DNA of 64,000 nt, from the NCBI RefSeq assembly GCF_000426485.1, contig NZ_KE384529.1, positions 62,001 through 126,000 of the forward strand. Reading direction: 5' to 3'. The position numbers and the translations under genes are program-made. This document shows, one piece after another, positions 7,176 through 58,310 of this stretch; the first letter of the stretch is position 1, and every line of letters begins with the position of its first letter. The notes under the pieces are model-generated. The model was not told where the DNA came from. It made no database searches and worked only from the letters and a program-made list of their open reading frames with translations. This DNA is from Indolivaga capnocytophagoides DSM 22835. GTDB taxonomy: Bacteria > Bacteroidota > Bacteroidia > Bacteroidales > Dysgonomonadaceae.

Positions 7176-7188
7176 AGGTCTGAGACCT
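7176..7188. repeat. GGTCTGAGACC palindrome, copy 1
   Basis: AGGTCTGAGACCT, perfect except for the central base, then TAA. It lies 13 bases upstream of the fbaB start codon. Confidence 0.8.
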
Positions 7189-7404
7189 TAATTATTTTGA
7201 TTCTAAATAAGATATGTGAATAAAAGCCTTATCGCTTACTATTCCACATTATCAACTATTCATACTTATGGTATATTATTAAAACGTATTTCGTTTGGAG
7301 ATAGTTTCTTTTAAATATTAATAATTTGTTAAAATCTAAGATTATTTAACAATATCTCTGATTGATAAAGATATGCCCCAAAGCTGATTATTTATTTTTT
7401 TTGT

Positions 7405-7412
7405 TATCTTTG
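7405..7412 (+). promoter_or_regulatory. Promoter -7 element for the PEPCK-like gene
   Basis: TATCTTTG matches TAnnTTTG, 64 bases before the ATG at 7476. A clear -33 box is not visible. Confidence 0.5.
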
Positions 7413-7475
7413 CTTGCCTCTCAAAACAAAAAGACATTGAATAACTAGTAATAATAATCAAAGAGTAAAAAGAAT

Positions 7476-9206
7476 ATGCTACATGAATTTACACTATCGC
7501 GGGGAAGAGCGATGATTAATTTCACACTGAAATACTGCGATACTAAACAAAAATTACTAAGTAGTTATGGATTTAGAAGAGTAGTTGAAGCATTTGTCAA
7601 AAAAATAAAGAAGGACGATCCTATTATATACGATCATTATATCAAAAGTTTCAAAACAGACGAAAACCTTGTCGAATCACTTATAGAATCATTCAAATTA
7701 CTGACTGTATTCAAAATAGAAGAAGTTATCGAAGTTGATAATAAATACACCGCACTTTTTGCTGATAAAGATTTATTCATCGAACTAATCGAACTACTGC
7801 TTCAATATTGGAAAAAACTCGAAAGATATTCTATTGTACGTAATACCCGCTTAGGTGACGGACTTCAGAATGTAAGATTCATTCAGGCCAATGACTTGTT
7901 CAATGATCTTGTACTGACTACAGTACGCCGTATTCAGGAGACTGTAAACGGATTCGATCAAAGAGTATACCGTCAGACTACAGTCGGAGCAACAGCCTCT
8001 CTTACATTGAATGATGTAAACTGGAATTGCCCAATCGAATACAAAGGACTTACACCGATACCATTTATCAGTACAGTTGTAATACGTCCTCCTTTCATTA
8101 CATACACAAAACGCAATACCCGAGACGGAATCTTTCAGGAACATCACCAAAATCCATTGAATAATATTATTCTGAATGAGGACGATTGGTATGTATTCCC
8201 TGCTAAAGTAGGTGCAATGCTTACATTTGTTTATTTCCACAAAGACTTTATGGCTCAGGGAATAGGTTTATCTAACCTGTTCGAGCTTGCCAAAGAAAGT
8301 GAATACATCGGAAAGAAACCTGATATCATCTACGTATTCGGATATCCGGACGGAGAAGAAGAAAAACGTACATTCTACTATAAAGATAAAAAGAATGATA
8401 TCCTGATCGGATATGCAAACTATTGCGACGATATCGATTATTTCGGATACATGAAGAAGATGTTATTAACACTTCATAATGTTAAACAAATAGAAAACAA
8501 TCGCTTACCTATTCACGGGGCAATGGTTAACATCGTTCTTAAAAATGGCAAAGAGTCTAATATCATTATCATGGGTGATAGCGGAGCCGGAAAATCAGAA
8601 AGCTTGGAAGCATTCCGTACGCTGAATGAAAGCTATATCCGTCATATGCGCGTAATCTTTGACGATATGGGATTCCTTAAAAAAGAAGCAGATGGCTCTA
8701 TCAAAGGATATGGTACCGAAATCGGAGCATTTGTCCGCATAGATGACCTTGATCCTGCTTACGCATACGAACAGTTGGACAGAGGTATCTACAGCAATCC
8801 TGATAAAATCAATGCCCGTGTAACAATTCCTATTTCAACATACGAAGTAATCTCTAAAGGATACAAAGTAGATATTATGCTTTATGCAAATAACTATCAG
8901 GAATCCGATAAGAAGATTTCATTCTATGACGATCTGGATAAAGCAATTCAGGTATTTGAAGACGGAGCACGTAAAGCCAAAGGAACAACTACCGAAAAAG
9001 GCCTTGTGAAATCTTACTTTGCCAATCCTTTCGGACCTGTTCAGGAACGTGCAGAAACAGAAGTCTTGGTTCGCCAGTTCTTCAAAGATATGAAGAATAA
9101 CGGAGTTCAAATCGGAGAAATACATACTTCTCTGGCTATTGACGGACGCAGCAAAGATGGTCCTCGTGAAGCAGCTGAAGAGTTGTTCTCTTTGATCAAC
9201 AACTAA
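7476..9206 (+). CDS. PEPCK-fold / HPr-kinase-like P-loop protein of unknown substrate
   Basis: Protein of 576 residues often labelled phosphoenolpyruvate carboxykinase in Bacteroidetes annotations. The C-terminal half carries NIIIMGDSGAGKSESLEAF, a P-loop with GDSGAGKS at residues 367-374, preceded by LPIHGAMVNIVLKNGK and followed by MRVIFDDMGFLKKE. This arrangement is like HprK and PEPCK. I do not see the full set of substrate-binding motifs of classical ATP- or GTP-PEPCK, and the N-terminal 330 residues are unlike either. It may therefore phosphorylate something else. No signal peptide or membrane segment. It is monocistronic: own -7 element, and a terminator straight after. Confidence 0.7.
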   Translation: MLHEFTLSRGRAMINFTLKYCDTKQKLLSSYGFRRVVEAFVKKIKKDDPIIYDHYIKSFKTDENLVESLIESFKLLTVFKIEEVIEVDNKYTALFADKDLFIELIELLLQYWKKLERYSIVRNTRLGDGLQNVRFIQANDLFNDLVLTTVRRIQETVNGFDQRVYRQTTVGATASLTLNDVNWNCPIEYKGLTPIPFISTVVIRPPFITYTKRNTRDGIFQEHHQNPLNNIILNEDDWYVFPAKVGAMLTFVYFHKDFMAQGIGLSNLFELAKESEYIGKKPDIIYVFGYPDGEEEKRTFYYKDKKNDILIGYANYCDDIDYFGYMKKMLLTLHNVKQIENNRLPIHGAMVNIVLKNGKESNIIIMGDSGAGKSESLEAFRTLNESYIRHMRVIFDDMGFLKKEADGSIKGYGTEIGAFVRIDDLDPAYAYEQLDRGIYSNPDKINARVTIPISTYEVISKGYKVDIMLYANNYQESDKKISFYDDLDKAIQVFEDGARKAKGTTTEKGLVKSYFANPFGPVQERAETEVLVRQFFKDMKNNGVQIGEIHTSLAIDGRSKDGPREAAEELFSLINN

Positions 9207-9228
9207 GACAAATTTAGTTCTACTATAT

Positions 9229-9266
9229 AAAAAATAGGATTCATAAAATATGAATCCTATTTTTAT
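9229..9266. terminator. Bidirectional terminator between the PEPCK-like gene and putA
   Basis: ATAGGATTCAT (9234-9244) pairs with ATGAATCCTAT (9250-9260), with an A run on the left and a T run on the right. It can serve both convergent genes. Confidence 0.85.
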
Positions 9267-9280
9267 TTTGAAAGCTCAAC

Positions 9281-9294
9281 CCTTCTGAGACCTT
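9281..9294. repeat. GGTCTGAGACC palindrome, degenerate copy beside putA stop
   Basis: CCTTCTGAGACCTT keeps the right arm CTGAGACCTT but has lost the left GG. It ends two bases before the complement of the putA stop codon (9297-9299). Confidence 0.5.
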
Positions 9295-9296
9295 AA

Positions 9297-12200
9297 CTAC
9301 TTTTCATCGAAAATGCTTCCATAACGGTGATATTCAAAAGCAATACTTTGCTCTTTCAGGTAATGCAGCAATTCCAATCGACCTTCTACTAAAGGCTTAT
9401 TTGAAGCAATGTGCTTTCCTAATTTAGCAGCTTTAGCATAAAATTCATCCGACAAATCAGAAGAACAAGTTCTGATACGGTCATAGCGATCCATACCATT
9501 TAAAAATTCTGATTCGGACTGAACTTGTATGTTCGCATTCTTAACCATAGGCAAAGCCCATTCTAATTTCTGAGATTTAGGATCATCAGCACTAACACTT
9601 ACTGTTAAATCAACAGATGCAATAGATGCAGCAAGCATCGAAAGCAAAACATCGCACAGGTCATCTTGCACCCGAACCCTAAGAGCAACCTTATTCAATG
9701 GTAAATAACGGAATACATTAGATTCTCCATAGATATGATTAACATCACGTCCTTCAGAAAATTCAGCCTTATAAACCTCAGTATAATTTGCAGCAGCAAA
9801 ATTCAAGCGGTTCTTAGATACCTCATCCTGAACCAAATCACTTAATGGACATACCGATGCTACTGATTGTAAATTATTATTTTCCTCAAATTCAACAAAA
9901 CAAGAGACATAATTCACACCTCCCGCTTTAATACCTCCGCCAAAAGCAGACCGTTTCATTCCTCCAAAAGGCTGACGATTGACAATGGCTCCGGTAATAC
10001 CTCTGTTTATATACAGATTACCAGCCTCAAGAGTATCCTTCCACAACTCCTGTTCATCTTCGTCCAAACTTTGAAGCCCCGATGTCAACCCATATTCGGA
10101 TGAATTAACAAAGTCAATTCCCTGCTTCAAATCTTCGATACAAACAACAGCCAGCAAAGGAGCAAACAATTCGGTCTTAAAAGTGTAACTTGAAGGTTTT
10201 ACTCCCCATTTTACAGTAGGTTTCAGTATATATTTTTTCTCATCCACAAAAACAGGAGGTACTAACCACGATTCACCCTGTTCGAGATTTTCAACAGCAT
10301 GTAATAACTTATCATTATCGTTTGTTATCATTGGTCCGATGATATTATCGGGGTTCCAGACACTGCCTGTGTGCAGGCTTAGAACTGCATCTCTTAATTT
10401 AGATTTAAAATTCTCATCCTTGTAAATATCTTTATCAACCAACAGCAAAGAGCAAGCCGAACATTTTTGACCTGCATTACCGAACGCAGAAGAAACAACA
10501 TTCAGAATAGCATGATCCTGATCTCCGTTTCCGGTAAGTATAATAGCATTTTTACCTCCTGTTTCTGCAGATAAAGGTGTTCTGGGATTCTTTTCCAATA
10601 AATTGAATGCAGTATCTGTTCCTCCGGTTAAGATAAAATGCTTAACAGACGGATGTCCGGTGAGAAAGTTCAACGGTTCACGCCCATTCGGACAAACAAC
10701 CTGTAAGGCATCTCTCGGAACACCTGCATCCCAGAAACACTGCGCAAATTCCCACGCTACAGGAAAAGCAACTGTAGCAGGTTTTAATATAACTGTATTA
10801 CCTCCGGACAAAGCGGAAGCAACTCCTCCTACAGGAATAGCCAATGGAAAATTCCATGGTGATATAACCAAAACGGTTCCTTTAGGCTTATAAGAAACGG
10901 TTTCAAGCTCTTCGAATGACTTCATGCTGATAGGGTAAAAACGGCAGAAATCAATTGCTTCCGAAACTTCTACATCCCCTTCCATAAAAATCTTTCCAGT
11001 AATAGCAGCCATACAGCCAATAAGATCACCTCTTTTTGCCGACAACTTATCAGCAACATTATGCAGGATACGATTACGTTCTTCGAGAGTTTTTATTCTC
11101 CACCCTGATTTATCAGAATCCGCAACAGATACAATTTCTTTCATCTGATCCAACGAAGACAAGCTAGCCTCGCAGAAGCACACCGCATCATTATTACTCC
11201 GGTCGTAATACCTCTTTTTATCTGTTGTTTCAATTTCTTGATCCCCGATCTGAACAGGTATCTTATAATTATCAGATCTTACTTCTGTCTCCCACTTCTT
11301 TAATTTTTGTAGTGCCCATTCTCTGTTGATCGGTAAATCCAGATCGGTATCCGGTTCATTCTTGAACAGATTAATATCTTCTACCGGCAAAGGGGCAGCA
11401 GTTCTATCTTGTTTTCTAAAAGACTGAGGTATCATCGAGTCTTTTTTCGCATAAGCCTCAAGAAACTGACCAGCTAAAAAATCCCATTGAGGGCTATCCA
11501 GTCTCAAGCTAAAAGAATAGCTCAGGAAATTGTCTTTTCCTGTATTTTCATCCAGTCGGCGCACCAGATAAGATACTGCATTCAGGAAATGCTCTTTCTT
11601 CACCACAGGCGTATAGAGAATAATCTGCTTATCTAATTTTCTCATCACACGGGGTAAATGATTTGCCATACCTTCGAGCATTTCGAAAGTAATATAATCC
11701 TTCACATCGTTTCGCTCACTCAATAAGTAAGCATACCCTATTGTAAAAAAATTATGGGATGCAACACCTATATTCAACACCTTAGCATTCTCCGGCTGCA
11801 AGGCAATATCCAAAATATGAAGATAGTTTGCATCCACATCCACTTTTGAGGGTAGAACGGGATTTGTCCAGCCTTTCAGAGAAGAAACAATAGTCTCCAT
11901 TTGCAGATTAGCACCTTTTACCAACCTCATTTTAAGAGGTGCACCACCCTCCTCTACTCTCTTTCTGGCTAGAGTCAGTAATCTTTGCTGTAGTAACCCT
12001 GCATCGGGTAAATATGCCTGAACAACTATCCCCGCAGTATAATTTTTGAATTTAGGCATACTCAATACCGTCTCGAAGACATCTAATGTCAACTCAGCAT
12101 CTTTGTACTCCTCCATATCGAGATTTACAAATTTAGATTTTTGAACACCTTCGGGAGTAATATAAGGATAATCTATAGCTTGCTGATATATACGGGCTAC

Positions 12201-12803: not shown

Positions 12804-12880
12804 TTAGTTTAGGAGATTTATATTTTACATCTTAATTTACTTTGATTTAATCACCATAAACAACACTTCGTTGATATTGG

Positions 12881-12899
12881 AAGAGGCTTGCAGCCTCTT
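12881..12899. other. Hairpin upstream of putA
   Basis: AAGAGGCT, loop TGC, AGCCTCTT: a perfect 8-bp stem lying 78 bases before the putA ATG. No T-run follows on either strand, so it is not a typical terminator. It may be a leader structure. Confidence 0.45.
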
Positions 12900-13009
12900 T
12901 CCTTATTGTGTTTTCTGTATATTTTCAATAGCATTAGCCCCTTAAGCTATGTTTCACCCTCATTATCCGAGTCTTAGAGTCCTATAATTTTACAATTTTT
13001 TTTTCACAA

Positions 13010-13150
13010 AACAATACACACCTCCACGACGACCAAAAGACAAAACAATACAACCACAGAAATAAAAAAAACAAATAAACCAGAAAAAACAACCAAAACA
13101 AATCAACAAGACACAAAAATAATCAAAATAAAAACAAAAAGACAAATCAA
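13010..13150 (+). other. A/C-rich, G/T-depleted tract
   Basis: About 140 bases of the plus strand are almost only A and C, with isolated G and T. There is no repeat unit of fixed length and no gene. A similar tract lies at about 38930-39060; both are between divergent genes and near a palindrome copy. Confidence 0.55.
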
Positions 13151-13168
13151 TTTAGATTAATAAATAGT

Positions 13169-13176: not shown

Positions 13177-13280
13177 CTTTATCACTAGGTTTTTAATCCT
13201 ATTTAAATACGAACATGTATTAAATGATATATATTTAGTCAGCAACAGACTCTGGTTATTACACTTAAGAAAATAATAAA

Positions 13281-13296
13281 TAGGTCTGAGACCCTA
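13281..13296. repeat. GGTCTGAGACC palindrome, copy before the M64 peptidase
   Basis: TAGGTCTGAGACCCTA, with outer arms AATA and TATT extending the dyad. The core ends 11 bases before the start codon. Upstream sequence (AGCAACAGACTCTGGTTA) resembles that of the copies at 58297 and 39749. Confidence 0.8.
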
Positions 13297-13304
13297 TTCA
13301 TATC

Positions 13305-20342: not shown

Positions 20343-20416
20343 AACCGCCGAACTATATTATAGTTGATTAACAGATTAACAGATCTGCTTATCAGCCCGT
20401 TTATTGACATTATAAA

Positions 20417-20431
20417 AAGGTCTGAGACCTT
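20417..20431. repeat. GGTCTGAGACC palindrome, copy before tilS
   Basis: AAGGTCTGAGACCTT, seven-base arms around a single central base. The GGTCTGAGACC core ends 13 bases before the tilS ATG. Confidence 0.8.
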
Positions 20432-20442
20432 AGATTCAAAAC

Positions 20443-21765
20443 ATGGAAATCCTCTCCAAAGTAAAAAAGTATATTAAGGATAATAATCTGTTGAACGATC
20501 ACGCCCGTGTAATAATCGGCGTAAGTGGAGGTGCAGATTCTATCGCACTGTTAGATATACTTTACAATTTGGGATATGAATGTATTGTAGCACATTGTAA
20601 CTTTCATCTTCGGGATCAGGAATCATACAGGGACGAGTATTTCGTTGAAAAAGCTTGCGAAAAATATAATGTAGAATATGTATCTGCCAGCTTTAACACA
20701 AAAAAATATATCAAAGAAGAGTCTATTTCACTCGAAATGGCCGCTAGAGAATTACGATATGCGTGGTTCGAGAAAATCAGGAAGAAATACAAAGCCGAAA
20801 AAATAGCTATTGCACATCATCAAAATGATTCGGTTGAAACCGTTCTCATAAATTTGATTCGAGGTACAGGTATACGCGGTCTTACAGGCATTGCACCCCT
20901 CAATGGATATGTAATCCGTCCCTTACTTTGCATATACAGGGATGACATCTTAGCGTATTTGCAAAAGAAAGAATTATCATTTGTAGAAGATAGCACAAAC
21001 AAAGAGGATATATATACCCGTAACAAAATAAGGCTTAACGTTCTGCCCTTACTTCAAACGATAAATCCATCGGTAATACAGTCTATAAGCCGTACTGCCG
21101 AAAACCTGACTCAGACAGAAAAAATATACCAATCGTATATAGACAAAGCTAAGAGGGCTGTTTTTTCTGATAATATCATTGATATAGATGCTCTGTTGCA
21201 GCAGGTCGAACCCAAAACTATACTTTTTGAAATATTGTTTCCTCTGGGGTTTAATACACCTACTGTCGATAATATATACGAATCGGTTAACAGCCAATCG
21301 GGGAAAGTTTTTTTCTCAACAGAATATCAGCTGGTTAAAGATAGAAACACTTTTATTATCCAGCAGATTGAAAGCCAATCGGACAAAATATATACGCTTT
21401 TTGAACACGAAACAGAAATAGCAGAACCCTTGAAGCTGACTATCGAATCGTTTCGCAAGCCTAAAGATTTTGAGATAGAACGTAATCCCAATACAATATA
21501 TATCGATAAAGGTAAACTCTCATTTCCGCTGATCATCCGTAAATGGAAAAAAGGAGATAAGTTTCGACCTTTCGGAATGAAAGGACACAAAAAAATCAGC
21601 GATTATTTTACCGACCGGAAATTCAGTCTTATCGAAAAAGAAAATATTTGGCTGCTCTGTTCTGTCGATGACATTGTATGGATCATTGGCGAACGTGCCG
21701 ATGATCGGTTTAAAATTACCAATAAAACAATAGAAGTATTAAAGATTAATATTGATCGAGGATAA
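20443..21765 (+). CDS. tilS: tRNA(Ile)-lysidine synthetase
   Basis: Essential enzyme that adds lysine to cytidine 34 of the tRNA(Ile) reading AUA, using ATP. The PP-loop SGGADS is at residues 28-33, followed by ALLDIL and, further on, VAHCNFHLR and IAHHQNDSVETVLINLIRGTGIRGLTGI, all typical of TilS. The C-terminal substrate-binding domain has IIRKWKKGDKFRPFGMKGHKKISDYFTDRKF. Length of 440 residues is normal. The last 27 bases overlap the 3' end of the convergent TPR gene. The palindrome sits close upstream of the ATG. Confidence 0.96.
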   Translation: MEILSKVKKYIKDNNLLNDHARVIIGVSGGADSIALLDILYNLGYECIVAHCNFHLRDQESYRDEYFVEKACEKYNVEYVSASFNTKKYIKEESISLEMAARELRYAWFEKIRKKYKAEKIAIAHHQNDSVETVLINLIRGTGIRGLTGIAPLNGYVIRPLLCIYRDDILAYLQKKELSFVEDSTNKEDIYTRNKIRLNVLPLLQTINPSVIQSISRTAENLTQTEKIYQSYIDKAKRAVFSDNIIDIDALLQQVEPKTILFEILFPLGFNTPTVDNIYESVNSQSGKVFFSTEYQLVKDRNTFIIQQIESQSDKIYTLFEHETEIAEPLKLTIESFRKPKDFEIERNPNTIYIDKGKLSFPLIIRKWKKGDKFRPFGMKGHKKISDYFTDRKFSLIEKENIWLLCSVDDIVWIIGERADDRFKITNKTIEVLKINIDRG

Positions 21766-27833: not shown

Positions 27834-27852
27834 AAGGTCTCAAACAGACCTT
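27834..27852. repeat. GGTCT...AGACC palindrome, expanded-loop copy before GH28
   Basis: AAGGTCTCAAACAGACCTT: seven-base arms AAGGTCT and AGACCTT separated by five bases instead of one. It lies 17 bases upstream of the GH28 start. Confidence 0.65.
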
Positions 27853-35353: not shown

Positions 35354-37765
35354 ATGACGGCTTTGATAAGAAAAGAGCTAACAACTATAATATGTTCGGT
35401 TACCGGACTTGGTTTCGCTATTATATTTCTTTTGGCCTGCGGGCTTATTCTATGGCTATTCCCCGGAAGTTCAAATATATTGGACAATGGATATGCCGTT
35501 ACAGACTCATTTTACAAAACGGCATCCATCCTGTTACTGATATTAACTCCGGCTCTGACCATGAGATTGATATCAGAAGAAAAACGCAGCCACACGCTTG
35601 ATGTACTCCGGTCTAGACCGGTTAAAACCATTACTATCTTATTTAGCAAATGGCTTTCTGCCTTGATATTTGTCATTCTTATATTTATCTCAACATTAGT
35701 TTATATATATACCATATATAAATTGGGCACTCCCGTTGGAAATATCGATATTCGCATCGTCACATTGACATACTTGTCTCTGATTATTATTACATCCGTA
35801 TTTCTAATATCAGGAATACTGGCTTCCTCGTTAACCAATAATCAGATAATAGCATTTTTGGCAGCTTTAAGCTTAAATTTTATATTACTTTATGGAATGG
35901 ACATGATGAGTAGTGTCATACATAATCCTCAGGTCAAGTCCCATATATTAAATCTATCGTTGTCATTTCATACCGACAGAATCAGAAAAGGATTATTGTA
36001 TCTGAATGACATAACACTATTTCTGGGATACATCATCCTTTTATTTACAATATCAATTCTGATTTTAGGAAAAATAAAACTTAGATCACTTACTATTTTA
36101 ATAGGTATAACCTCTCTGTCTATTGCCATGACACTAATACCTGTGTCGGCACGCTTAGACCTGACTAAAGATAAAAGATACACAATCAGTCCAGAATCGA
36201 CCGTTTTAATGGAAGCGGTAAATAAAAATAATACTTCGATAAGCATCAACATTTATTTCACAGGAGACTTAAACTATGGACTAAAACGCCTGCAAACTTC
36301 TGCACTAGACTTACTGAATGAATTAAATGAAAAAGCAGGAAATCGTCTATCCATTTCAATAATAAATCCCTATTCTCTGGGAATGGACAGAGAAACTCTG
36401 CCACAATATATGGCGGAAAAATCAATGCCTGCTATCCAGCTAAATGAAATAGACCGAAACGGAAAGATCAGCCGTCAATTAATTTATCCTTATGCGCAGG
36501 TAACAAGTAATGGAGATACCTTATCCATACCATTATTAAAAAGTATACGAGGCAATACAGCTGAAGAAAATCTGAATGCTTCGATAGAAGACCTCGAATT
36601 CCAATTTTCAGATGCCATCAGACTATTGACAAACAAAGAGAATCAAAACATTGCGTTTATCGAAGGGCATGGAGAGCTTCCCCGCACATATATATACGAT
36701 GCGGAAGAATCACTTGCTAAATATTACAACATCAACAGAGGACAAATCACGAATGATGTATCAGTTCTTGACAACTTTAAGGTTGTGATTATAGCAGGGC
36801 CTACAGAAAAATACACCGAAAAAGAGAAATTCATACTCGATCAGTATTTAATGAGAGGAGGACGCATACTTTGGATTATTGATGGAGCATACGTATCTTA
36901 TAAAGAACTGACTGAAAAAGGAGAGTCGCCGAGTATAAAAAATGAGGTAAATCTGGATGATATGCTATTCAATTACGGTGTTCGTATAAATTCCGACTTC
37001 ATACAAGACGCTACGTGTACAACTATACCGGTAAATTCAACAGACGGTTCATCGTATATTAATCTACCATGGTACTATTCACCTATATTATTACCCTCGG
37101 CAGACAATGCCGTTACCAAAGATATTGCCGGGGTTAAAGCATCATTTGCCAGCAGCCTGAATCCGGTTAACAAAAAATTAACCGTGACACCTAAAGTACT
37201 GCTTACTACTTCTGACAAAAGCCACATAGTACGCATTCCTGAAATGATAAGCCTCGATATTGAAAAAATCCAAGACAACAAAGATTATTTCGATACTTCA
37301 TTTATTCCGGTAGCGATATCATTAGAAGGCATTTTTACATCAGCATTCGAAAATAGAATGATGCCTGATAGTATTTCCATACAAAAAGATCAAATTCTCA
37401 CAAAAAGCAAGCCTACAAAAATGATTGTTGTTTCATCGTCCGATATTATACGAAATGATATAGAAACACAAAACGGCTCTCCACAAATATTACCAATGGG
37501 TTATGACAGATCATCGGGAAAAACATTCGGCAATAAAGATTTTATTGTAAATTCTGTCAATTGGCTCTCAGATGACAGCAACTGGATGCATCTCCGAACA
37601 AAATCAAGGCAAACGAATCTGCTCGATAAACAGAAAATATCCGAAAATCGTAATTTATATGTATTTATAAATATTTCGTGTCCGATATTCTTTATACTGT
37701 TAGTCTGTGGTGCATTTTCAATGTATCGCAAAAAGAAATATTCAAACAAAAAAAGGAGAACTTAA
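35354..37765 (+). CDS. GldF-GldG fusion: ABC-2 permease joined to a Gldg-family domain
   Basis: 803-residue inner-membrane protein. Residues 1-240 are an ABC-2 permease with six membrane segments (SVTGLGFAIIFLLACGLILWL; LTPALTMRLISEEKRSHTLDVLRSRPV is the family loop), matching GldF. After further segments near 245-275, residues 285-765 form a soluble periplasmic GldG/DUF4350-like domain (SARLDLTKDKRYTISPES; NIAFIEGHGELPR; GGRILWIIDG). One final membrane segment and a basic tail (RKKKYSNKKRRT) close it. In gliding Flavobacteria, GldF and GldG are separate and act with the ATPase GldA. No gldA is nearby, so the ATPase must be encoded elsewhere. The stop codon starts a palindrome copy. Confidence 0.88.
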   Translation: MTALIRKELTTIICSVTGLGFAIIFLLACGLILWLFPGSSNILDNGYAVTDSFYKTASILLLILTPALTMRLISEEKRSHTLDVLRSRPVKTITILFSKWLSALIFVILIFISTLVYIYTIYKLGTPVGNIDIRIVTLTYLSLIIITSVFLISGILASSLTNNQIIAFLAALSLNFILLYGMDMMSSVIHNPQVKSHILNLSLSFHTDRIRKGLLYLNDITLFLGYIILLFTISILILGKIKLRSLTILIGITSLSIAMTLIPVSARLDLTKDKRYTISPESTVLMEAVNKNNTSISINIYFTGDLNYGLKRLQTSALDLLNELNEKAGNRLSISIINPYSLGMDRETLPQYMAEKSMPAIQLNEIDRNGKISRQLIYPYAQVTSNGDTLSIPLLKSIRGNTAEENLNASIEDLEFQFSDAIRLLTNKENQNIAFIEGHGELPRTYIYDAEESLAKYYNINRGQITNDVSVLDNFKVVIIAGPTEKYTEKEKFILDQYLMRGGRILWIIDGAYVSYKELTEKGESPSIKNEVNLDDMLFNYGVRINSDFIQDATCTTIPVNSTDGSSYINLPWYYSPILLPSADNAVTKDIAGVKASFASSLNPVNKKLTVTPKVLLTTSDKSHIVRIPEMISLDIEKIQDNKDYFDTSFIPVAISLEGIFTSAFENRMMPDSISIQKDQILTKSKPTKMIVVSSSDIIRNDIETQNGSPQILPMGYDRSSGKTFGNKDFIVNSVNWLSDDSNWMHLRTKSRQTNLLDKQKISENRNLYVFINISCPIFFILLVCGAFSMYRKKKYSNKKRRT

Positions 37766-37778
37766 GGTCTGAGACCTT
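37763..37778. repeat. GGTCTGAGACC palindrome, copy at the gldFG stop
   Basis: TAAGGTCTGAGACCTT: the gldFG stop codon TAA (37763-37765) is the left outer arm. It is followed by TTTATTACTTTGGTAAG, a flank shared with other copies. With its T-run it could act as a terminator. Confidence 0.8.
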
Positions 37779-37889
37779 TTTATTACTTTGGTAAGTAAAA
37801 CATTCAAAACATGTTACAAATTAAAACACATCATTAAATCCTTTATATTACTTAAATCTGTTCTCCTTTTTATATGGGTTTCTATTTCC

Positions 37890-38492: not shown

Positions 38493-38770
38493 ATGTTTTT
38501 TTGTTTTGTAAATATAGTCCTGAAGACTTTTAATTGTTTCCTGTGAGTTTAAGTATATCATAAGATGCTTAAGTCACCTTATATAACAAGACAATAAATA
38601 GATTTGTTTTTGCTTTTAGGTAACAGAAAGTATTTAATAACGTGTTTTTTTAGTTACAACAAACTTTTGCTGTTATGCCTTCAAAGTCAACAATTCAAGC
38701 AGTGAGAGCAAATACAAAATTTATTTTGATTATGCCAAATCGCGAGAAATGCCTTATGAAATAGCATAAA

Positions 38771-38786
38771 TAGGTCTGAGACCTTA
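38771..38786. repeat. GGTCTGAGACC palindrome, intergenic copy
   Basis: TAGGTCTGAGACCTTA preceded by AAA. Upstream, GTATTTAATAACG and AACAAACTTTTGCTGTTATG align with flanks of the copies at 13283 and 58297. Confidence 0.8.
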
Positions 38787-39677: not shown

Positions 39678-39746
39678 CTGTATTAAGTAGTAAAACATTG
39701 ATTGATGTATTTTTAAGCAATAACCAGCTCTTGCTGTCATACACAA

Positions 39747-39762
39747 TAGGTCTGAAACCTTA
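39747..39762. repeat. GGTCTGAAACC palindrome, copy at the recQ stop
   Basis: ATAGGTCTGAAACCTTAT region. The right outer TTA (39760-39762) is the complement of the recQ stop codon. Upstream, AGCAATAACCAGCTCTTGCTGTCATAC resembles flanks of other copies. Confidence 0.75.
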
Positions 39763-41667
39763 TTTTGTTCTCATCAGACAACCCTCTTCTAAGAGAAAAA
39801 TACCTTCATCGACTTGATATCGTATAACAGCCAGTATGTTCTCTTTACTATATTCAGTCAGAGAGTCTAAAATATCCTCAAGAGCAATACCCTGATCGGC
39901 ATCATCAAGCATTCGACTGATCAGATTACTTATTGAGCGAAATTTAAAAGCTGTTATCCCCGAATCATTTTTCGTTAAACAGACATCACAGCATCCACAG
40001 TCTTTTGCATTTTTTTCGCCAAAATAAGCGAGTAGCATGCGGCTTCGGCATACGTCATTTCTCTCAACATATTCGGTTATACCTTCAATACGTTTTGTAA
40101 ATCTTTCTTTTCGAATCTCATAAACACTTTTGGAGATCACTACATATTTTTTAGCTAAACGAGGTTGTGTGTACACCACAAATGGTGTTTTTTTATACGG
40201 AATGTAATCAATAATATGCCTTTTCGACAACAGCTTGAGCATCTCGTATACTTCCTTTCGTGTTTTCTGGATATGGACACCAATTTCACCTTCGTTTATA
40301 TTTATATAATCAGCAAACAATCCGGTATACAATCTCAGAATAACATTGATAAGACGTTCGTATTCTGGATCAAACTCATACTTATACAACTCATCCCTGT
40401 ATATCTTGAAAATAAGACGTGATTGATTGTCCGCCTCATCCGTATACTCTATATAACCGGCCAGACTCAAAATCTTCAAAGCATTATGTGTCGGTAAAAC
40501 AGGAAATTTATAAGCCGAACAAAACTGATGAAGATTAAAATCATAAGCCATTTCAGTACCGAATCCCTCCGCTACCTGAAAAAAATATGCTAACGATTCA
40601 TATATAAGAAGTATAAAATCCCTCTCAGGATATTCGTCCGATATGCGTTTCTTTAATTTTGTACTATCCGTTTTATTATATAAGATTGTCGCATAAGCTT
40701 TTTTCTCGTCCCTGCCTGCCCTGCCTGCCTCCTGATAATACTCCTCTATTGAATTGGGCAAGTCCATATGAACAACAACCCTAACATCGGGCTTATCGAT
40801 TCCCATCCCGAAAGCATTTGTAGAAACAATAACACGGCATTCATTGTCTTTCCACGCATTTTGTTTTCGTGATTTTTCATAAGAAGGCAATCCCGCATGA
40901 TAATAATCTGCCTGAATTCCATTTTTCATTAGGCTCTCAGCTATTTCTTTAGTTTTAATCCTGCTCCGAACATAAACAATAGCTGTACCCTGTGTCTTTG
41001 TCAATATCTGAATAAGTGACGAAAGTTTATCATCCGTATATCGTACTATATAAGACAGATTTTCTCTCGAAAAGCTTTTCCGAAAAACATTTTTCACCTT
41101 AAAATTCAGAATCTCCTGAATATCGTCAGTTACCTCCGGTGTAGCTGTTGCTGTCAATGCTAAAACAGGAACATCCGGAAACTGCTCTCTGATAGAGGCA
41201 ATATTCATATAAGAAGGACGGAAGTCGTACCCCCATTGCGAAATACAATGAGACTCGTCAACAGCCAGCATACAGAGATTCATATCTCTGAGCTTTAGCT
41301 GAAACAAACGGGTAGAAAGACGTTCGGGAGAAATATACAAAAATTTATAATCTCCCAGTATTGCATTCTCGAGTGTTGTAACAATCTCAGAATGGCTCAT
41401 TCCCGAATAAATAGCCAATGCTTTTATCCCTTTAGCCCTCAAATTGTCAACCTGATCTTTCATCAACGCAATCAAGGGAGTGACCACAAGACATAAACCA
41501 TCAAGAGCTAATGCCGGAACCTGAAAGGTGATGGATTTCCCCCCTCCGGTAGGCATTAGCCCTAATGTATCTTTACCGGCATAAACCGATTTTATAATAT
41601 TTTCCTGTAATGGGCGAAAACTATTGTATCCCCAATACTGCTGTAGTATTTTATGAAAAATATCCAC
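39760..41667 (-). CDS. recQ: RecQ-family ATP-dependent DNA helicase with displaced zinc module
   Basis: 3'-5' DNA helicase of 635 residues. Helicase motifs are canonical: FRPLQENII, Walker A PTGGGKS at 39-45, AVDESHCISQWGYDFRPSY, LALTATATPEV, FGMGIDKPDVR and HMDLPNSIEEYYQEAGRAGRDEK. The zinc cysteines sit at 540, 557, 560 and 563. Their 17-3-3 spacing equals that of E. coli RecQ (380-403), but they lie about 160 residues later, after an inserted region with winged-helix-like sequence (HNALKILSLAGYIEYT; RKEVYEMLKLLSKRHIIDY). No HRDC domain is evident. It is the last gene of recJ-MBL-recQ. Confidence 0.92.
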   Translation of the reverse strand: MDIFHKILQQYWGYNSFRPLQENIIKSVYAGKDTLGLMPTGGGKSITFQVPALALDGLCLVVTPLIALMKDQVDNLRAKGIKALAIYSGMSHSEIVTTLENAILGDYKFLYISPERLSTRLFQLKLRDMNLCMLAVDESHCISQWGYDFRPSYMNIASIREQFPDVPVLALTATATPEVTDDIQEILNFKVKNVFRKSFSRENLSYIVRYTDDKLSSLIQILTKTQGTAIVYVRSRIKTKEIAESLMKNGIQADYYHAGLPSYEKSRKQNAWKDNECRVIVSTNAFGMGIDKPDVRVVVHMDLPNSIEEYYQEAGRAGRDEKKAYATILYNKTDSTKLKKRISDEYPERDFILLIYESLAYFFQVAEGFGTEMAYDFNLHQFCSAYKFPVLPTHNALKILSLAGYIEYTDEADNQSRLIFKIYRDELYKYEFDPEYERLINVILRLYTGLFADYININEGEIGVHIQKTRKEVYEMLKLLSKRHIIDYIPYKKTPFVVYTQPRLAKKYVVISKSVYEIRKERFTKRIEGITEYVERNDVCRSRMLLAYFGEKNAKDCGCCDVCLTKNDSGITAFKFRSISNLISRMLDDADQGIALEDILDSLTEYSKENILAVIRYQVDEGIFLLEEGCLMRTK

Positions 41668-47234: not shown

Positions 47235-47284
47235 CGTCCGTAGATACAGGAAAATCTAAAAGCTATTAAATATAGCAAGTCTTT

Positions 47285-47318
47285 AACGGCACATTTCGAA
47301 GAGAAATCTTCAGCCGTT
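47285..47318 (+). promoter_or_regulatory. Leader hairpin upstream of the 2-oxoacid oxidoreductase operon
   Basis: AACGGC (47285-47290) pairs with GCCGTT (47313-47318), enclosing ATTTC/GAAAT. There is no T-run, so it is a structured leader rather than a terminator. Confidence 0.45.
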
Positions 47319-47343
47319 ATCATACTTGGTAAGTTAGTAAACA

Positions 47344-47354
47344 GGTCTACGACC
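47344..47354. repeat. GGTCTACGACC palindrome-family copy
   Basis: ACAGGTCTACGACCTTAAA keeps GGTCT and GACCTTA arms with a changed centre. It lies 33 bases upstream of the ferredoxin-subunit ATG. TACTTGGTAAG precedes it. Confidence 0.6.
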
Positions 47355-47387
47355 TTAAAATATATAGACAACTATCATTTAAAAGGA

Positions 47388-48837: not shown

Positions 48838-48851
48838 GGCTTTCAGACCTT
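48835..48851. repeat. Palindrome-family copy at the vorB stop
   Basis: TAAGGCTTTCAGACCTT: the TAA stop (48835-48837) forms the outer arm; AAGGCTT and AGACCTT are imperfect arms. A T-run follows, so it may also work as a weak terminator. Confidence 0.55.
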
Positions 48852-48941: not shown

Positions 48942-49700
48942 ATGAACACCAGTATAGTAGATCCTCAAAATTTGGTATATGCCAAACCCGAACTGATGAA
49001 TGACAATCAGATGCACTATTGCCCGGGTTGTTCGCATGGTGTCGTACATAAACTCATCGCCGAGATTATCGACGAAATGGGTTTACGTGATAAAACTATA
49101 GCTATAGCACCCGTAGGTTGTGCTGTATTCGCATACGATTATGTTGATATTGATTGGCAGGAAGCTGCACATGGACGTGCTCCGGCACTGGCTACAGCTA
49201 TAAAACGACTTTGTCCCGATAAGCTTGTATTTACTTATCAGGGAGATGGGGACTTAGCCGCTATCGGGACAGCCGAAACAATACATGCCGCCAATAGAGG
49301 AGAGAATATTGCCATCATCTTTATTAATAATGGTATATATGGTATGACCGGAGGACAGATGGCTCCAACCACTCTGCAAAATATGAAAACATCAACCACT
49401 CCAAACGGACGTGATACTTATGAGAATGGTTATCCTCTGAAAATAACAGACCTGCTTGCCCAACTCGAAGGTGTTTGTTTTGCAACCCGTCAAAGTGTAC
49501 ATACAGCACCTGCTGTAAAAAAAGCGAAGCGAATGATTGCTAAAGCTTTTCAGAATTCTTTGGACGGAAAAGGAACATCTATTGTTGAAATAGTCTCTAC
49601 CTGCAATGCTGGATGGAAAATGACTCCGGCAGGAGCAAATAACTGGATGGTAGATAATATGTTTCCGGTATATCCAATCGGAGATTTAAAAGATATCTAA
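48942..49700 (+). CDS. korB: 2-oxoacid:ferredoxin oxidoreductase, beta (thiamine diphosphate) subunit
   Basis: 252 residues. HYCPGCSHGVVHKLI supplies the N-terminal Cys motif, APVGCAVFAYDYVDIDW follows, and the thiamine-diphosphate motif runs from GDGDLAAIGTAETIHAANRGENIAIIFINNGIYGMTGGQMAPTT. This fits KorB/VorC subunits. It follows the alpha gene after 104 bases that contain a palindrome-family element, and precedes the gamma gene by 22 bases. Cytoplasmic, part of the delta-alpha-beta-gamma complex. Confidence 0.93.
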   Translation: MNTSIVDPQNLVYAKPELMNDNQMHYCPGCSHGVVHKLIAEIIDEMGLRDKTIAIAPVGCAVFAYDYVDIDWQEAAHGRAPALATAIKRLCPDKLVFTYQGDGDLAAIGTAETIHAANRGENIAIIFINNGIYGMTGGQMAPTTLQNMKTSTTPNGRDTYENGYPLKITDLLAQLEGVCFATRQSVHTAPAVKKAKRMIAKAFQNSLDGKGTSIVEIVSTCNAGWKMTPAGANNWMVDNMFPVYPIGDLKDI

Positions 49701-49722: not shown

Positions 49723-50277
49723 ATGGTTAACGAAATTATTATAGCCGGATTCGGTGGACAAGGAGTTTTATCGATGGGTAAAATTCTGGCATATTCAGGA
49801 TTGATGGAAGGAAAAGAGGTCTCTTGGTTTCCTTCATACGGTCCTGAGCAACGGGGTGGTACATCTAACGTAACAGTAATACTCAGTGATGACGTTATCA
49901 GTTCGCCCATTGTCAGCGAATATGACATTGCAATTATTCTGAATCAACCCTCACTCGAAAAGTTCGAATCGCAGGTAAAACCGGGAGGAATTATCTTATA
50001 TGATCCGGACGGAATTCATCGTCCACCTACAAGAACTGATATATCCGTATATAAAGTTGACGCTATGGGAAAAGCATCAGAAATGCAAAACCAAAAAGCG
50101 TTCAATATGATTGTATTGGGCGGCTTGCTCAAAATAAATCCCGTAGTAGATCTCGAACATGTAATGATGGGATTGAAAAAGACTTTACCGGCAAGACATC
50201 ACGGTCTTTTACCTATGAATGAAAAAGCCATTCTGCAAGGTATGGAAATTGTAGAAAAAGTAAACATTTCCGCATAA
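49723..50277 (+). CDS. 2-oxoacid:ferredoxin oxidoreductase, gamma subunit
   Basis: 184-residue subunit of the pyruvate/ketoisovalerate oxidoreductase gamma family. Diagnostic sequence: IIIAGFGGQGVLSMGKILAYSGLMEGKEVSWFPSYGPEQRGGTSNVTVILSD, then NQPSLEKFESQVKPGGIILYD. It probably contributes the CoA-binding part of the complex. It ends the operon, with a strong terminator after it. Confidence 0.93.
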   Translation: MVNEIIIAGFGGQGVLSMGKILAYSGLMEGKEVSWFPSYGPEQRGGTSNVTVILSDDVISSPIVSEYDIAIILNQPSLEKFESQVKPGGIILYDPDGIHRPPTRTDISVYKVDAMGKASEMQNQKAFNMIVLGGLLKINPVVDLEHVMMGLKKTLPARHHGLLPMNEKAILQGMEIVEKVNISA

Positions 50278-50376: not shown

Positions 50377-50391
50377 TAGGCCTGCAACCAT
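50377..50391. repeat. Palindrome-family copy upstream of der
   Basis: TAGGCCTGCAACCAT in the context AAATAGGCCTGCAACCATAA is a degenerate form of AAATAGGTCTGAAACCTTAA (58294). It lies just upstream of the der -7 element. Confidence 0.5.
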
Positions 50392-50507: not shown

Positions 50508-51830
50508 ATGGGAAATTTAGTAGCGATAGTTGGACGCCCGAATGTAGGAAAATCAACATTATTCAACCGCTTGACACAATCGCGTCAGGCTATTGTTGAT
50601 GAAACTTCAGGAACAACTCGCGATAGACAATACGGAAAAGTTGAATGGGGCGGAAAAGAGTTTTCGCTTGTGGATACTGGTGGCTGGGTTGTAAATTCGG
50701 AAGATATATTCGAAGAAGAAATCAATAAACAAGTGGCCATAGCTATTCAAGAAGCAGACATTATTTTGTTTGTTGTAGATGTGATGAACGGAGTGACTGA
50801 TCTCGATCAAAGTGTAGCCGGTATCTTACGACGGGCAAAAAAGCCAATTATATTAGTCTCAAACAAAGCTGATAACTTTAATGTACATGCCCTTTCTGCC
50901 GAATTTTACACATTCGGTTTGGGTGATCCAATAAATATTTCGGCAATTAATGGAGCAGGAACCGGAGATTTACTGGATGAAGTTATTACAAAACTGCCAA
51001 CTAATGAGGAGATCGATTTTGAGGATTACGAAGAGAATATTCCCCGTATTGCCATAGTGGGTCGTCCTAATGCAGGTAAATCATCATTTGTGAATGCTCT
51101 TATCGGAGAAGATCGCAATATAGTTACTAATATTGCAGGTACTACCCGTGATTCCATTTATACTAAATTCGATAAGTTCAATATGGACTTTTATTTAGTA
51201 GATACGGCCGGAATACGGAAAAAAGGGAAAGTGAGCGAAGACTTAGAATACTATTCAGTAATACGATCTATCAAAGCAATCGAAAATTCTGATGTTTGTA
51301 TTCTAATGCTGGATGCAACACAAGGTATAGAAAGTCAGGATTTAAATATATTTTCGATCATACAAAAAAACCGAAAAGGATTAGTTGTATGTGTAAATAA
51401 ATGGGACTTAGTTGAAAATAAAGAACAGGTAGTTATCAAGACTTTTGAAGAAGCTATCCGTAACCGATTGGCTCCCTTTACAGACTTTCCTATTATTTTT
51501 GCATCGGCTCTAACTAAACAGCGTATACTAAAAGTATTGGAGACAGCAAAAGAGGTTTATAACCACAAAAAAGTAAGAATTCCAACTCATAAATTAAATG
51601 AAGTTCTGCTTCCTATTATAGAGCGTACTCCTCCTCCATCTAATAAAGGAAAGTATATTAAGATTAAATATATCACTCAGCTACCTAATACACAAGTTCC
51701 GACTTTTGTATTTTTCTGTAATCTTCCTCAATGGATAAAGGATCCGTATAAGAGATTCCTCGAAAACCGCATACGTGACCATTGGAATCTTTCTGGAACA
51801 CAAATAAATATAATTATCAGAGAAAAATAA
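50508..51830 (+). CDS. der: Ribosome-biogenesis GTPase Der (EngA)
   Basis: Double-GTPase needed to assemble the 50S subunit, 440 residues. The first G domain has GRPNVGKS (9-16), [14 protein letters not shown] and SNKAD. The second has GRPNAGKS (185-192), [22 protein letters not shown] and NKWD. A C-terminal KH-like domain ([29 protein letters not shown]) follows. All elements are intact and the length is typical. It is single-gene with its own -7 element and terminator. Confidence 0.97.
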
Positions 51831-53132: not shown

Positions 53133-53170
53133 AAAAAAGAACAGACATTAAACGTCTGTTCTTTTTTTTT
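53131..53170. terminator. Bidirectional terminator
   Basis: AAAAAAAAGAACAGAC (53131-53146) pairs with GTCTGTTCTTTTTTTT (53154-53169) around ATTAAAC. It serves the lipoprotein gene (+) and the AsmA gene (-). Confidence 0.88.
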
Positions 53171-53184
53171 AGAGTTCCGAAATT

Positions 53185-55902: not shown

Positions 55903-56033
55903 AAAATTGACCAGTGTTAAAATCTCAGCTTTTTGATATTGTTTAATAAACATGCAACAAAAACAACTAAAGGTAAACTATATATCAAAATGACAATAAT
56001 TTACCTTCGTTAAATATCTAAAAAAGAAACAAC

Positions 56034-57986
56034 CTATCGGGATTTCTCTTTTATTTCCTCTAATTCCATGGTCAGCAATTCCCATGTACTCATTTCATTT
56101 TCTATATCTTTACTCAACTTTCCATGCTTTTCGAAAAGAGCAGCATCCGAAGCACCTTCAGGTGTAGCTAAAACCTCTTCTAACTGCGATTTTTCAGTTT
56201 CGAGTTTCTCTATTCGGGATTCAGCATCGGCAATTTGTTTCTCTTGTTTTTTTATCAGACGACCTAGCTCTTTACGTTCTTCATAAGATAACTTATTTTC
56301 AGACTGAACAACTTTAAGATCTTCTTTTGGAGCTTCACCATTCTTTGAAGCTAAAGGCTTTTCTAACTCCTGTAAAGTATCCATCTTTTTCTTTTGCAGG
56401 AATTCGTATATTCCATACAGATGTTCCTTTACCTGCTGATTACCAAATTCATATACCTTATCAACCAGTCCATCAAGAAATTCACGATCGTGAGAAACAA
56501 CTATAACCGTTCCGTCAAATTCTTTTATAGCCTCTTTTAATACATCTTTCGATCTCATATCCAAGTGATTGGTCGGCTCATCGAGAATAAGAAGATTAAC
56601 AGGTTCGAGTAGTAAGCGTATCATCGCCAAACGACTGCGTTCTCCTCCCGACAGTACTTTTACTTTTTTATCGGAAGCTTCACCTCCGAACATAAAAGCT
56701 CCTAATATATCTCGTATTTTAGTTCGTATATCTCCTGTTGCAACATAATCTATCGTTTCGAAAACCGTTTTACTCTCATCCAACAATGAAGCCTGATTTT
56801 GAGCAAAATATCCGATTTTCACATTATGTCCCAATTCGAGTTTCCCTTTGAAATCGGTCTCTCCCATTATACATTTGACCAAAGTAGATTTGCCCTCTCC
56901 GTTTTTTCCGACAAAAGCAACTTTATCACCTCTGTTAATGGTTAAAGTAACATTCTTAAATATAAGATGATCTCCATATGATTTTTCCACCTCATCGGTT
57001 ATAACAGGATACGAACCTGAGCGAGGCGCAGGCGGAAATTTAAGACGTAAAGAGGAATTATCTTCTTCATCTATCTCGAGCCGTTCAATCTTGTCCAGTT
57101 GTTTTATTCTCGACTGTACCTGTACTGCCTTAGTAGCTTTATATCGAAAACGTTCTATAAAATCTTCAGTTTCCTGTATTTGCTTTTGTTGATTTTCGTA
57201 TGCTCTTATTTGCTGTTCACGGCGTTCTTTTCTCAGTTCAACATATTTCGAATAACTTACCTTATAATCGTATGTCTTACCCAAAACAATCTCAATAGTA
57301 CGCATCGTTACTGCATCGAGAAAAGCCCGGTCATGAGATACCAGTATCACGGCATTGGCTCGTGTTGCCAAAAAATTTTCGAGCCACTGTATAGATTCTA
57401 TATCAAGGTGATTGGTCGGCTCATCGAGCAGTAATACATCAGGACGGCGGAGTAAAAGTTTTGCCAACTCAATACGCATTCTCCAACCTCCACTGAATTC
57501 ACTCGTAGGACGTTCGAAATCTGATCTTTTGAATCCCAGCCCGATTAAAGTACGTTCTACTTCTGCCAAAAAGTTACCTCCACCGGACATCATAAACTGC
57601 TCATTCAAATAAACAGAACGCTCTATCAGATCATGATACTCTTTCGATTCATAATCAGTCCGTTCTGCCATTTGCTGATTGACAGATTCGAGCTCAGATT
57701 CGAGTTGTTGAACATGATCAAAAGCCAAAGATGCTTCTTCTAAGACTGTATTACCTTCCACCAAAGTCATGTGCTGAGGCAAATAGCCTATAGTTAAATC
57801 TTTTGAATAAGAAATCCGACCGTGTGTTGGTTCCTGTATTCCTGCAAAAACCTTAAGCATAGTCGATTTTCCGGCTCCGTTTTTTCCGACAAGGGCAATA
57901 CGGTCTTTCTTATTTACAACAAATGATATATCATCGAACAACGGTCGCCCGCTGAATTCTACAGTTAATCCTTCTACTGAAATCAC
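56034..57986 (-). CDS. ABC-F family ATPase (ribosome-associated)
   Basis: Duplicated ATP-binding-cassette protein without membrane segments, about 650 residues. The first cassette has GKNGAGKST and FSGGWRMRIELAKLL; the ABC-F linker is helical (ERREQQIRAYENQQKQIQETEDFIERFRYKATKAVQ); the second cassette has GKNGEGKST and LSGGERSRLAMIRLL, with LLILDEPTNHLD in both. A C-terminal coiled coil (residues about 555-640) follows. The start chosen is GTG 57986 (ISVEGLTVEFSGRPLFDD); a TTG nine codons upstream overlaps the -7 element and cannot be translated from that promoter. Close to Uup/YdiF-type translation factors. Confidence 0.93.
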   Translation of the reverse strand: MISVEGLTVEFSGRPLFDDISFVVNKKDRIALVGKNGAGKSTMLKVFAGIQEPTHGRISYSKDLTIGYLPQHMTLVEGNTVLEEASLAFDHVQQLESELESVNQQMAERTDYESKEYHDLIERSVYLNEQFMMSGGGNFLAEVERTLIGLGFKRSDFERPTSEFSGGWRMRIELAKLLLRRPDVLLLDEPTNHLDIESIQWLENFLATRANAVILVSHDRAFLDAVTMRTIEIVLGKTYDYKVSYSKYVELRKERREQQIRAYENQQKQIQETEDFIERFRYKATKAVQVQSRIKQLDKIERLEIDEEDNSSLRLKFPPAPRSGSYPVITDEVEKSYGDHLIFKNVTLTINRGDKVAFVGKNGEGKSTLVKCIMGETDFKGKLELGHNVKIGYFAQNQASLLDESKTVFETIDYVATGDIRTKIRDILGAFMFGGEASDKKVKVLSGGERSRLAMIRLLLEPVNLLILDEPTNHLDMRSKDVLKEAIKEFDGTVIVVSHDREFLDGLVDKVYEFGNQQVKEHLYGIYEFLQKKKMDTLQELEKPLASKNGEAPKEDLKVVQSENKLSYEERKELGRLIKKQEKQIADAESRIEKLETEKSQLEEVLATPEGASDAALFEKHGKLSKDIENEMSTWELLTMELEEIKEKSR

Positions 57987-58010
57987 TACAAAAATTATTT
58001 TTATTATCAG

Positions 58011-58018
58011 CAAAAGTA
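58011..58018 (-). promoter_or_regulatory. Promoter -7 element for the ABC-F gene
   Basis: The complement reads TACTTTTG, 24 bases before the GTG start. Confidence 0.5.
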
Positions 58019-58030
58019 CAATTTATTTTT

Positions 58031-58068
58031 AAGGACTCTGCTTTTTTACTACTTTGGCAACTATAAAT
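58031..58068. repeat. Degenerate flank of the palindrome family
   Basis: AAGGACTCTGC, then TTTTTTACTACTTTGGCAAC, parallels AAGGTCTGAGACC, then TTTTTATTACTTTGGTAAG at 37764. The palindrome itself is eroded. Confidence 0.4.
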
Positions 58069-58090
58069 ATAAGATACAGTCATTCATCGT

Positions 58091-58210
58091 ATGAAAAATT
58101 TAATCTTTATAGTGATTTTAGCCATTTTGGTAATATCTACATCATGCCGATCAGCAAAAGGCTGCGGATGCCCCAATGGGACAGGCGGTATATCACTTTC
58201 ATCTTTCTAA
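58091..58210 (+). CDS. 39-residue lipoprotein
   Basis: Short gene, ATG 58091 to TAA 58210. MKNLIFIVILAILVISTSC is a complete lipoprotein signal with Cys19; the mature peptide would be only about 21 residues (CRSAKGCGCPNGTGGISLSSF) with two further Cys in GCGCP. Such tiny Cys/Gly lipoproteins occur in Bacteroidetes without known role. Coding is supported by the textbook signal sequence and lipobox; against it are the short length and lack of a clear promoter, although ACTTTGGCAAC lies just upstream. It is divergent from the ABC-F gene. Confidence 0.65.
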   Translation: MKNLIFIVILAILVISTSCRSAKGCGCPNGTGGISLSSF

Positions 58211-58290
58211 AAGAGACTTAGTGACAGCAAGTATTTAATGATAAATTAATAGTTTATAACAGACTTTGGTTGCCTTTTTTACCAAAAGAG

Positions 58291-58310
58291 TAAATAGGTC
58301 TGAAACCTTA
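58291..58310. repeat. GGTCTGAAACC palindrome, copy upstream of argF'
   Basis: TAAATAGGTCTGAAACCTTA. It lies 60 bases upstream of the argF' -7 element. Upstream flanks GTATTTAATGAT and AACAGACTTTGGTTG match other copies. Confidence 0.75.

Follow-up and report, generated by a model that had tools for sequence, protein, structure and literature searches.

What is the 11-base palindrome, GGTCTGAGACC, that recurs between the genes of one stretch of a Bacteroidales genome? The stretch, hereafter the window, comprises 64,000 nucleotides of Indolivaga capnocytophagoides DSM 22835 (family Dysgonomonadaceae; treated here with Dysgonomonas), namely C1:62001-126000 (contig NZ_KE384529.1) of a 4.38 Mb genome in 38 contigs that we call G000. 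A first-pass annotation had placed seven exact GGTCTGARACC sites at 7177, 13283, 20419, 37766, 38773, 39749 and 58297, all of which we recover at these coordinates, and had suggested a regulator site, a REP-like (repetitive extragenic palindromic) element or a methylation target. Our analysis shows that the palindrome does not stand alone but forms the right terminus of a gene-less repeat of ~93 bp. The repeat is most probably a non-autonomous transposable family resembling the miniature inverted-repeat transposable elements (MITEs). Such a high-copy mobile repeat would shape the intergenic regions of Dysgonomonas and is also present in five further genera of the family; in promoter screens of these genomes, the 11-mer could be misread as an operator or a methylation motif. 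The annotation knew of no named element with this sequence, and our literature searches likewise found no named family with these ends: open-access full text yielded no paper containing GGTCTGAGACC, the open-access literature none joining Dysgonomonas with miniature inverted-repeat elements, and broader searches, among the matches listed, no title or abstract opening that names the family.

The recurrence is well above chance, as had been supposed. Allowing one mismatch, the window holds 13 strand-matches at 8 places versus 0.90 expected, and the maximum in 100 shuffles is 4. A genome-wide count, as the annotation had proposed, gives 153 forward and 150 reverse occurrences of GGTCTGARACC (303) versus 3 + 1 (4) for the reversed motif used as control, a frequency far above control. 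Location was studied in 1.2 Mb (27% of G000), made up of the opening 920 kb of C1 plus 280 kb of C2, using gene calls from our own hexamer caller rather than a standard annotation. Outside called genes lie 87 of the 92 exact sites in this part of the genome, where the coding fraction is 85% (C1) or 88% (C2); the binomial p for the intergenic excess is about 1e-67, and density inside genes is far from equal to that between them. The earlier statement that no site lies inside a gene thus holds within the window and, genome-wide, not strictly: five exact sites overlap called genes, four of them no more than about 90 bp from a gene boundary and one (C1 689392) clearly internal.

Structure of the repeat

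A consensus built from the 87 intergenic copies, after removal of the 5 sites overlapping called genes, bears out the wider consensus proposed earlier, AAATAGGTCTGAGACCTTA, and extends it into a shared body of ~70 bp, a long degenerate neighbour to the left of the 11-mer. In aligned copies the right terminus reads AATAAATAGGTCTGAGACCTTA and the left terminus TAAGTAACAGAAAGTATTTAATGA, with a left-to-right end distance of mostly 68-73. We count 109 near-full copies in the 1.2 Mb; most end positions are 75-100% conserved among them, and three, of which two belong to the left end and one to the right, stand at 52-59%. Chance matches to either end profile number 0 in 3 Markov replicates. The middle of the unit falls into several subfamilies with hairpins such as CTTTGG...CCAAAG and CTGTTGC...GCAAAGTC. 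A form of ~170 bp with extra internal sequence exists (window 38616-38786), as do some very short forms. The repeat is too short to encode a transposase, is dispersed and has many copies, as MITEs do.

Terminal inverted repeats are present and imperfect: the score of the left end against the reverse complement of the right end is reached by 31 of 20000 shuffles, or by 125 of 20000 when the TAAG tip is left out, and the direct-orientation control is non-significant (4625/5000). Mismatches in the GGTC/GACC arms of the palindrome are independent of each other in full copies, with observed numbers close to expected, as in drifting copies, and these copies show no compensatory arm changes beyond expectation. 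Two pairs of the middle hairpin do covary (53-68, 74/103 paired versus 45 expected; 55-66, 77/105 versus 69.5), which we attribute to the subfamilies. RNAalifold finds no common fold among near-full copies, and the window has 0 Rfam matches at gathering score.

Insertion sites, and presence and absence among relatives

The repeat is present or absent at orthologous sites, as expected of a MITE. No copy was detected in the orthologous gaps of 4 congeners at the window copies 37762 and 39684. The congener G031 has its own copies before the orthologs of genes 39760-41667 and 50508-51830, where other congeners have none, and another congener, G030, has its own copy between the orthologs of 48942-49700 and 49723-50277, adjoining an older solitary end also found in G032. 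Elsewhere in G000, the copy at C1 827140 lacks a counterpart in the 3 congeners with a showable gap, and the copy in the gap 830367-830456 lacks one in the single congener where the gap can be shown. Between G030 and G032, whose alignable pieces are mostly 82-93% identical, full units occur in one genome and are absent from the other at four places of clear alignment, c8:36960, c8:29887, c88:14496 and c88:35555, in a comparison that includes sites whose flanks could not be placed.

The search of related genomes proposed in the first-pass annotation finds the repeat in other Dysgonomonas and in further genera. A unit model based on sequence alone matches at least 29 of 101 family genomes and at least 6 of 15 genera; eight genomes have at least 41 matches each, and some of the five further genera have from at least 1 to at least 4. 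With 41 candidates scored per genome under strict filters, the 72 matchless genomes are weak negatives. The exact 22-base right end is also found in other Dysgonomonas and in metagenome-assembled genomes labelled Prevotella and Bacteroidales. Several right ends surround a phage terminase gene (C1 648820-649980, within about 645,000-657,000 of G000:C1; L067), and the repeat may occur in prophage too.

Copies of the repeat lie in sequence rich in TA/TTA(A). Of 71 pairs of left and right ends, 67 have the T and 61 the A of the terminal TA at the left flank, against 66 and 59, respectively, at the right flank; the sequence outside the terminal TA is mostly A/T. Right ends are often found directly at a stop codon (0 nt) or at about 13 nt or more upstream of a start codon, and this spacing is common to full and solitary copies, with a few solitary ends nearer the start. 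It would most simply reflect tolerance, with insertions kept where the stop codon and the ribosome-binding stretch are spared. On this model, a transposase supplied in trans would recognise the ends and insert the unit at TA/TTA(A)-rich targets, and copies would therefore survive mainly between genes, at TAA stop codons or about 13 nt or more before starts. Full copies have no significant orientation preference relative to the right-hand gene (47/80). Ends classed as solitary face the start of the downstream gene in 48 of 67 cases (p 0.0005), or 40 of 50 after the recount of partners described below; A-rich leaders may bias the orientation of a near-palindrome. In G000 (C1 0-920 kb, plus the part of C2 with G<C skew), right ends lie 97:50 on the leading strand, an excess not clearly different from that of genes (454:316, p 0.12).

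The copies in the window illustrate these forms. Full copies lie at 37762..37855 on the minus strand (palindrome 37766-37776, abutting the stop codon at 37765), at 39684..39762 on the plus strand (palindrome 39749-39759, GGTCTGAAACC, abutting the stop codon of the minus-strand gene 39760-41667) and at 58218..58311 on the plus strand (palindrome 58297-58307, again GGTCTGAAACC; profile model 4-97, E 1e-15). A further plus-strand copy spans 13211..13296 (palindrome 13283-13293; model 11-96, E 5e-15). The longer variant, at 38616..38786 on the plus strand, consists of a left part (38616-38694), extra internal sequence and a right end at 38764-38786 with its palindrome at 38773-38783. Two right ends are solitary: the plus-strand GGTCTGAGACC at 7177..7187, without a partner and 13 bp upstream of the minus-strand gene 6108-7163, and the plus-strand end at 20407..20433 (palindrome 20419-20429), which matches model positions 71-97 only and stands 13 nt before the gene at 20443. 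The "related forms" of the first-pass annotation, given at 27836, 47344, 48838 and 50379, belong to the same feature. By its profile match (model 11-97, E 1e-7), the one at 47344 is a decayed copy of the whole repeat (47273..47358, plus strand) with right end GGTCTACGACC, and G031 keeps a degenerate right end at this place, by inspection. The others are decayed right ends, by inspection: 27836..27850 on the minus strand, with split arms (GGTCTCAAACAGACC); 48839..48849 on the minus strand (GGTCTGAAAGC on that strand), seen also in the one-mismatch scan and the congener comparison; and 50379..50389 on the plus strand (GGCCTGCAACC). At about 58028-58066, upstream of the minus-strand gene 56034-57986, there is a very decayed reversed right end (TTAAGGACTCTGC...); G030, G032 and G034 retain a recognisable right end in the corresponding gap.

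Solitary right ends and the competing explanations

Many right ends occur without the rest of the unit. A position weight matrix (PWM) score of at least 20 kept 171 of 228 right-end matches, of which 82 belong to full copies, 20 to partial copies and 69 lack the standard body. A recount took out right ends of the long variant (38773 in the window is one of them), a short left/right unit and ends belonging to inverted pairs. It leaves 52 of these 69 with no left end, and no right end in opposed orientation, within 200 bp; since 111 of 3000 random positions also show a "partner" in this test, a few of the removed ends may be solitary. Among the first 30 exact palindromes listed per genome, 10 (G000), 9 (G030) and 14 (G034) are partnerless, compared with 13, 11 and 14 before the recount; for G034, the listed sites number 100 of 124. 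With end profiles built alike, 41 of 89 right ends versus 7 of 64 left ends have no partner within 20-180 bp (p 3e-6). Seven of eight placeable solitary sites are common to G030 and G032 and are mostly decayed, by eye, whereas full units are mostly unshared. For the G000 solitary sites at 824021 and 824477, neither of the two congeners with a showable gap (G034 and G032) has a counterpart. At C1 829305, a right end beside a full copy coincides with ~25 extra bases relative to G031, again by eye.

We take the solitary right ends to be remnants or by-products of the full unit that are kept, or arise, more often than left ends on their own. It is conceivable, if doubtful, that the solitary palindromic end of ~22 bp is itself a dispersing or actively retained unit, either as a REP-like minimal element of Bacteroidota that spreads without a REP-associated tyrosine transposase (RAYT) or as the footprint of a specific excision in which the left end and body are lost and the palindrome stays behind. 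Such a unit, if real, would account for the frequency of partnerless right ends in three species against the rarity of partnerless left ends, as well as for the apparent insertion of only ~25 bp at C1 829305. At one old site shared by G030 (c8:23931, joined coordinates; L100-L105) and G032, the two genomes carry perfect but different palindromes, AAGGTTTGAAACCTT and AAGGCTTTAAAAAGCCTT; these species-specific palindromes would reflect either selection for a hairpin or templated mutation of a quasi-palindrome.

Several observations weigh against a MITE-like family. The inverted repeats are weak; no duplicated base is detectable beyond the TA, and the flanks of the 71 pairs show no correlation; filled and empty sites are compatible with a TA or TTAA target, inexactly. 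The full unit at G030 c22:14151 is common to G030 and G032, and several other units in this comparison sit in larger differences or could not be placed. The high proportion of partnerless right ends (41/89) is also a difficulty, because a plain MITE does not predict it. Nor did a matching transposase emerge among the three families tested, with 27% of G000 read. DDE_3 (IS630) matches in 0 of 6 genus genomes. Y1_Tnp is unmatched in G000, G032, G010 and G022, and the genus Y1 loci L115-L117 (in G030, G031 and G034, with a single match each) gave no profile match, only ends with 6-7 mismatches. DDE_Tnp_1 has matches in two of 8 element-bearing genomes; G000 and the single-contig genomes G034 and G024 are among the 6 without any. 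At the three loci in the two genomes with matches (L238-L240), the profile is unmatched and even the best end has at least 7 mismatches.

The wider family yielded no better candidate. Of the DDE_3 loci elsewhere in the family, the four inspected (L174-L177) do not match the profile, and their ends are weak, with 7-8 mismatches. Y1_Tnp is matched in 43 of 101 family genomes; at six further Y1 loci (L168-L173) there is again no match to the profile, and the ends carry 6 or more mismatches. DDE_Tnp_1 was tested because the ends of ISPg1 in Porphyromonas gingivalis, another member of the Bacteroidales, carry GAGACC. At none of the 16 transposase loci inspected were the element's ends convincing. 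We therefore reject as mobiliser an IS630 transposase (no DDE_3 in six genus genomes, no convincing ends at four loci elsewhere), a RAYT/Y1 transposase (no match in G000, nine inspected loci without convincing ends) and a DDE_Tnp_1/IS5 transposase (two of eight genomes only, three loci without ends). By Pfam, 9 of the open reading frames found between opposed right ends are 7 host metabolic or surface genes, a phage terminase and one without a match. A single Y1 gene stands at seemingly the same locus in two genomes (L115, G031:C22:96539; L117, G034:C1:418666); we take it to be RAYT-like and the similar genes adjoining it to be of von Willebrand type.

Among the suggestions of the first-pass annotation, a REP-like element came nearest: a dispersed, extragenic, mobile repeat is what we find, and the 93 bp element had gone unseen. 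In a strict version, the ~22 bp end would be the basic unit, a Y1 (RAYT-type) transposase would disperse it in the form of single-stranded DNA, and the 93 bp units would be composites, as in REP sequences and their doublets (REPINs). The end is indeed a short extragenic palindrome in the 20-40 nt range with hundreds of copies, it is found solitary in G000, G030 and G034, six close inverted pairs of right ends (46-88 bp) exist, the middle hairpin covaries between subfamilies at 53-68, and G030, G031 and G034 each have one Y1 match. However, Y1_Tnp has 0 matches in G000, the genome of the genus richest in exact palindromes, and 0 in G032, G010 and G022, and neither the three genus Y1 loci nor the six others in the family have convincing ends, so that a RAYT flanked by the repeat is lacking among them. 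Moreover, right ends are usually paired with the non-palindromic left end, and inverted doublets are not the main unit, at six pairs versus 109 near-full left/right units in 1.2 Mb. Arms are intact in 39 of 52 partnerless ends versus 55 of 82 full units, whereas REP singlets are less conserved than doublets in the part of PMC3116915 available to us. We consider this version unlikely.

A host regulatory or RNA hairpin site (an operator, a leader or a 3'-end hairpin), perhaps acquired by a mobile repeat, would account for the orientation of solitary ends towards the downstream start, in the original classes and after the recount, for the many solitary ends located 11-24 nt before a start codon, and for the old shared sites c8:23931 and c8:25076, which stay palindromic despite arm changes between G030 and G032. 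Yet full copies show no such orientation bias and their arm changes are uncompensated, solitary sites 824021 and 824477 lack counterparts in G034 and G032, and a spacing like this also results if insertions are tolerated only beyond ~13 nt from the start codon; we regard this explanation as improbable. A regulator or recognition site alone, as first suggested, leaves the shared body of ~70 bp, the paired left end and the presence or absence of whole units unexplained. That the copies are intrinsic transcription terminators is very improbable: they contain a perfect short dyad, and a loose scan, run over the first 20 kb of the window, flags two of them, but in the consensus the stem is followed by T T A A and then mixed A/T instead of a T-run, and copies are found not just after genes but also ahead of them and in divergent gaps. 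A methylation or restriction recognition motif with a GAGACC core is hardly credible either, since the presence of this hexamer in the palindrome leaves the 93 bp body, the restriction to intergenic sequence and the differences in presence between species unexplained. A non-autonomous, MITE-like family remains our preferred reading, and the combination of solitary ends with no matching transposase among those tested makes spread or retention without a resident transposase a testable matter in the finished genome G034.

Comparison with known systems

The repeat shares with REP sequences and REPINs, as presented in part of PMC3116915, a short extragenic palindrome, hundreds of copies and the coexistence of solitary and paired forms; it differs in its non-palindromic left partner, in the lack of a Y1 match in the genus's richest genome and in solitary ends that are no more decayed than those of full units. 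REPs of the CGTC type occur in Bacteroidetes, according to a portion of PMC3733652; we saw no such tag in the consensus, for which no dedicated test was made.

In P. gingivalis, sections of PMC4596501 describe the MITEs BrickBuilt and MITEPgRS and the insertion sequence ISPg1 (IS5 family), several of whose terminal repeats begin with GAGAC(C) or end with GGTCTC. The terminal hexamer GAGACC/GGTCTC is also contained in the Dysgonomonas palindrome. Its orientation and the rest of the ends differ from what those sections give for P. gingivalis, BrickBuilt has 23-nt tandem repeats, and 6 of the 8 element-bearing genomes have no DDE_Tnp_1 match. The likeness in the hexamer may be due to chance and serves as a lead only.

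Close parallels are RUP in Streptococcus pneumoniae and Correia/NEMIS in Neisseria, described in passages of PMC2229807 as MITEs of ~100 bp with a terminal TA and a high copy number; RUP is intergenic there, and A+T-rich sequence is stated for such elements generally. The same passages report that RUP ends match IS630-Spn1, whereas the 6 genus genomes contain no IS630-type DDE_3 partner. The Dysgonomonas repeat also has weaker inverted repeats than RUP and Correia as described there, and its palindromic right end is often solitary. Correia elements come in short and long forms of 107 and 155 bp (PMC2229807, in the portion at hand), and the repeat described here similarly has two length forms, of ~93 and ~170 bp. 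In size, TA termini, copy number and presence or absence at orthologous sites, from which we infer mobility here, it resembles both RUP and Correia elements as far as those passages portray them.

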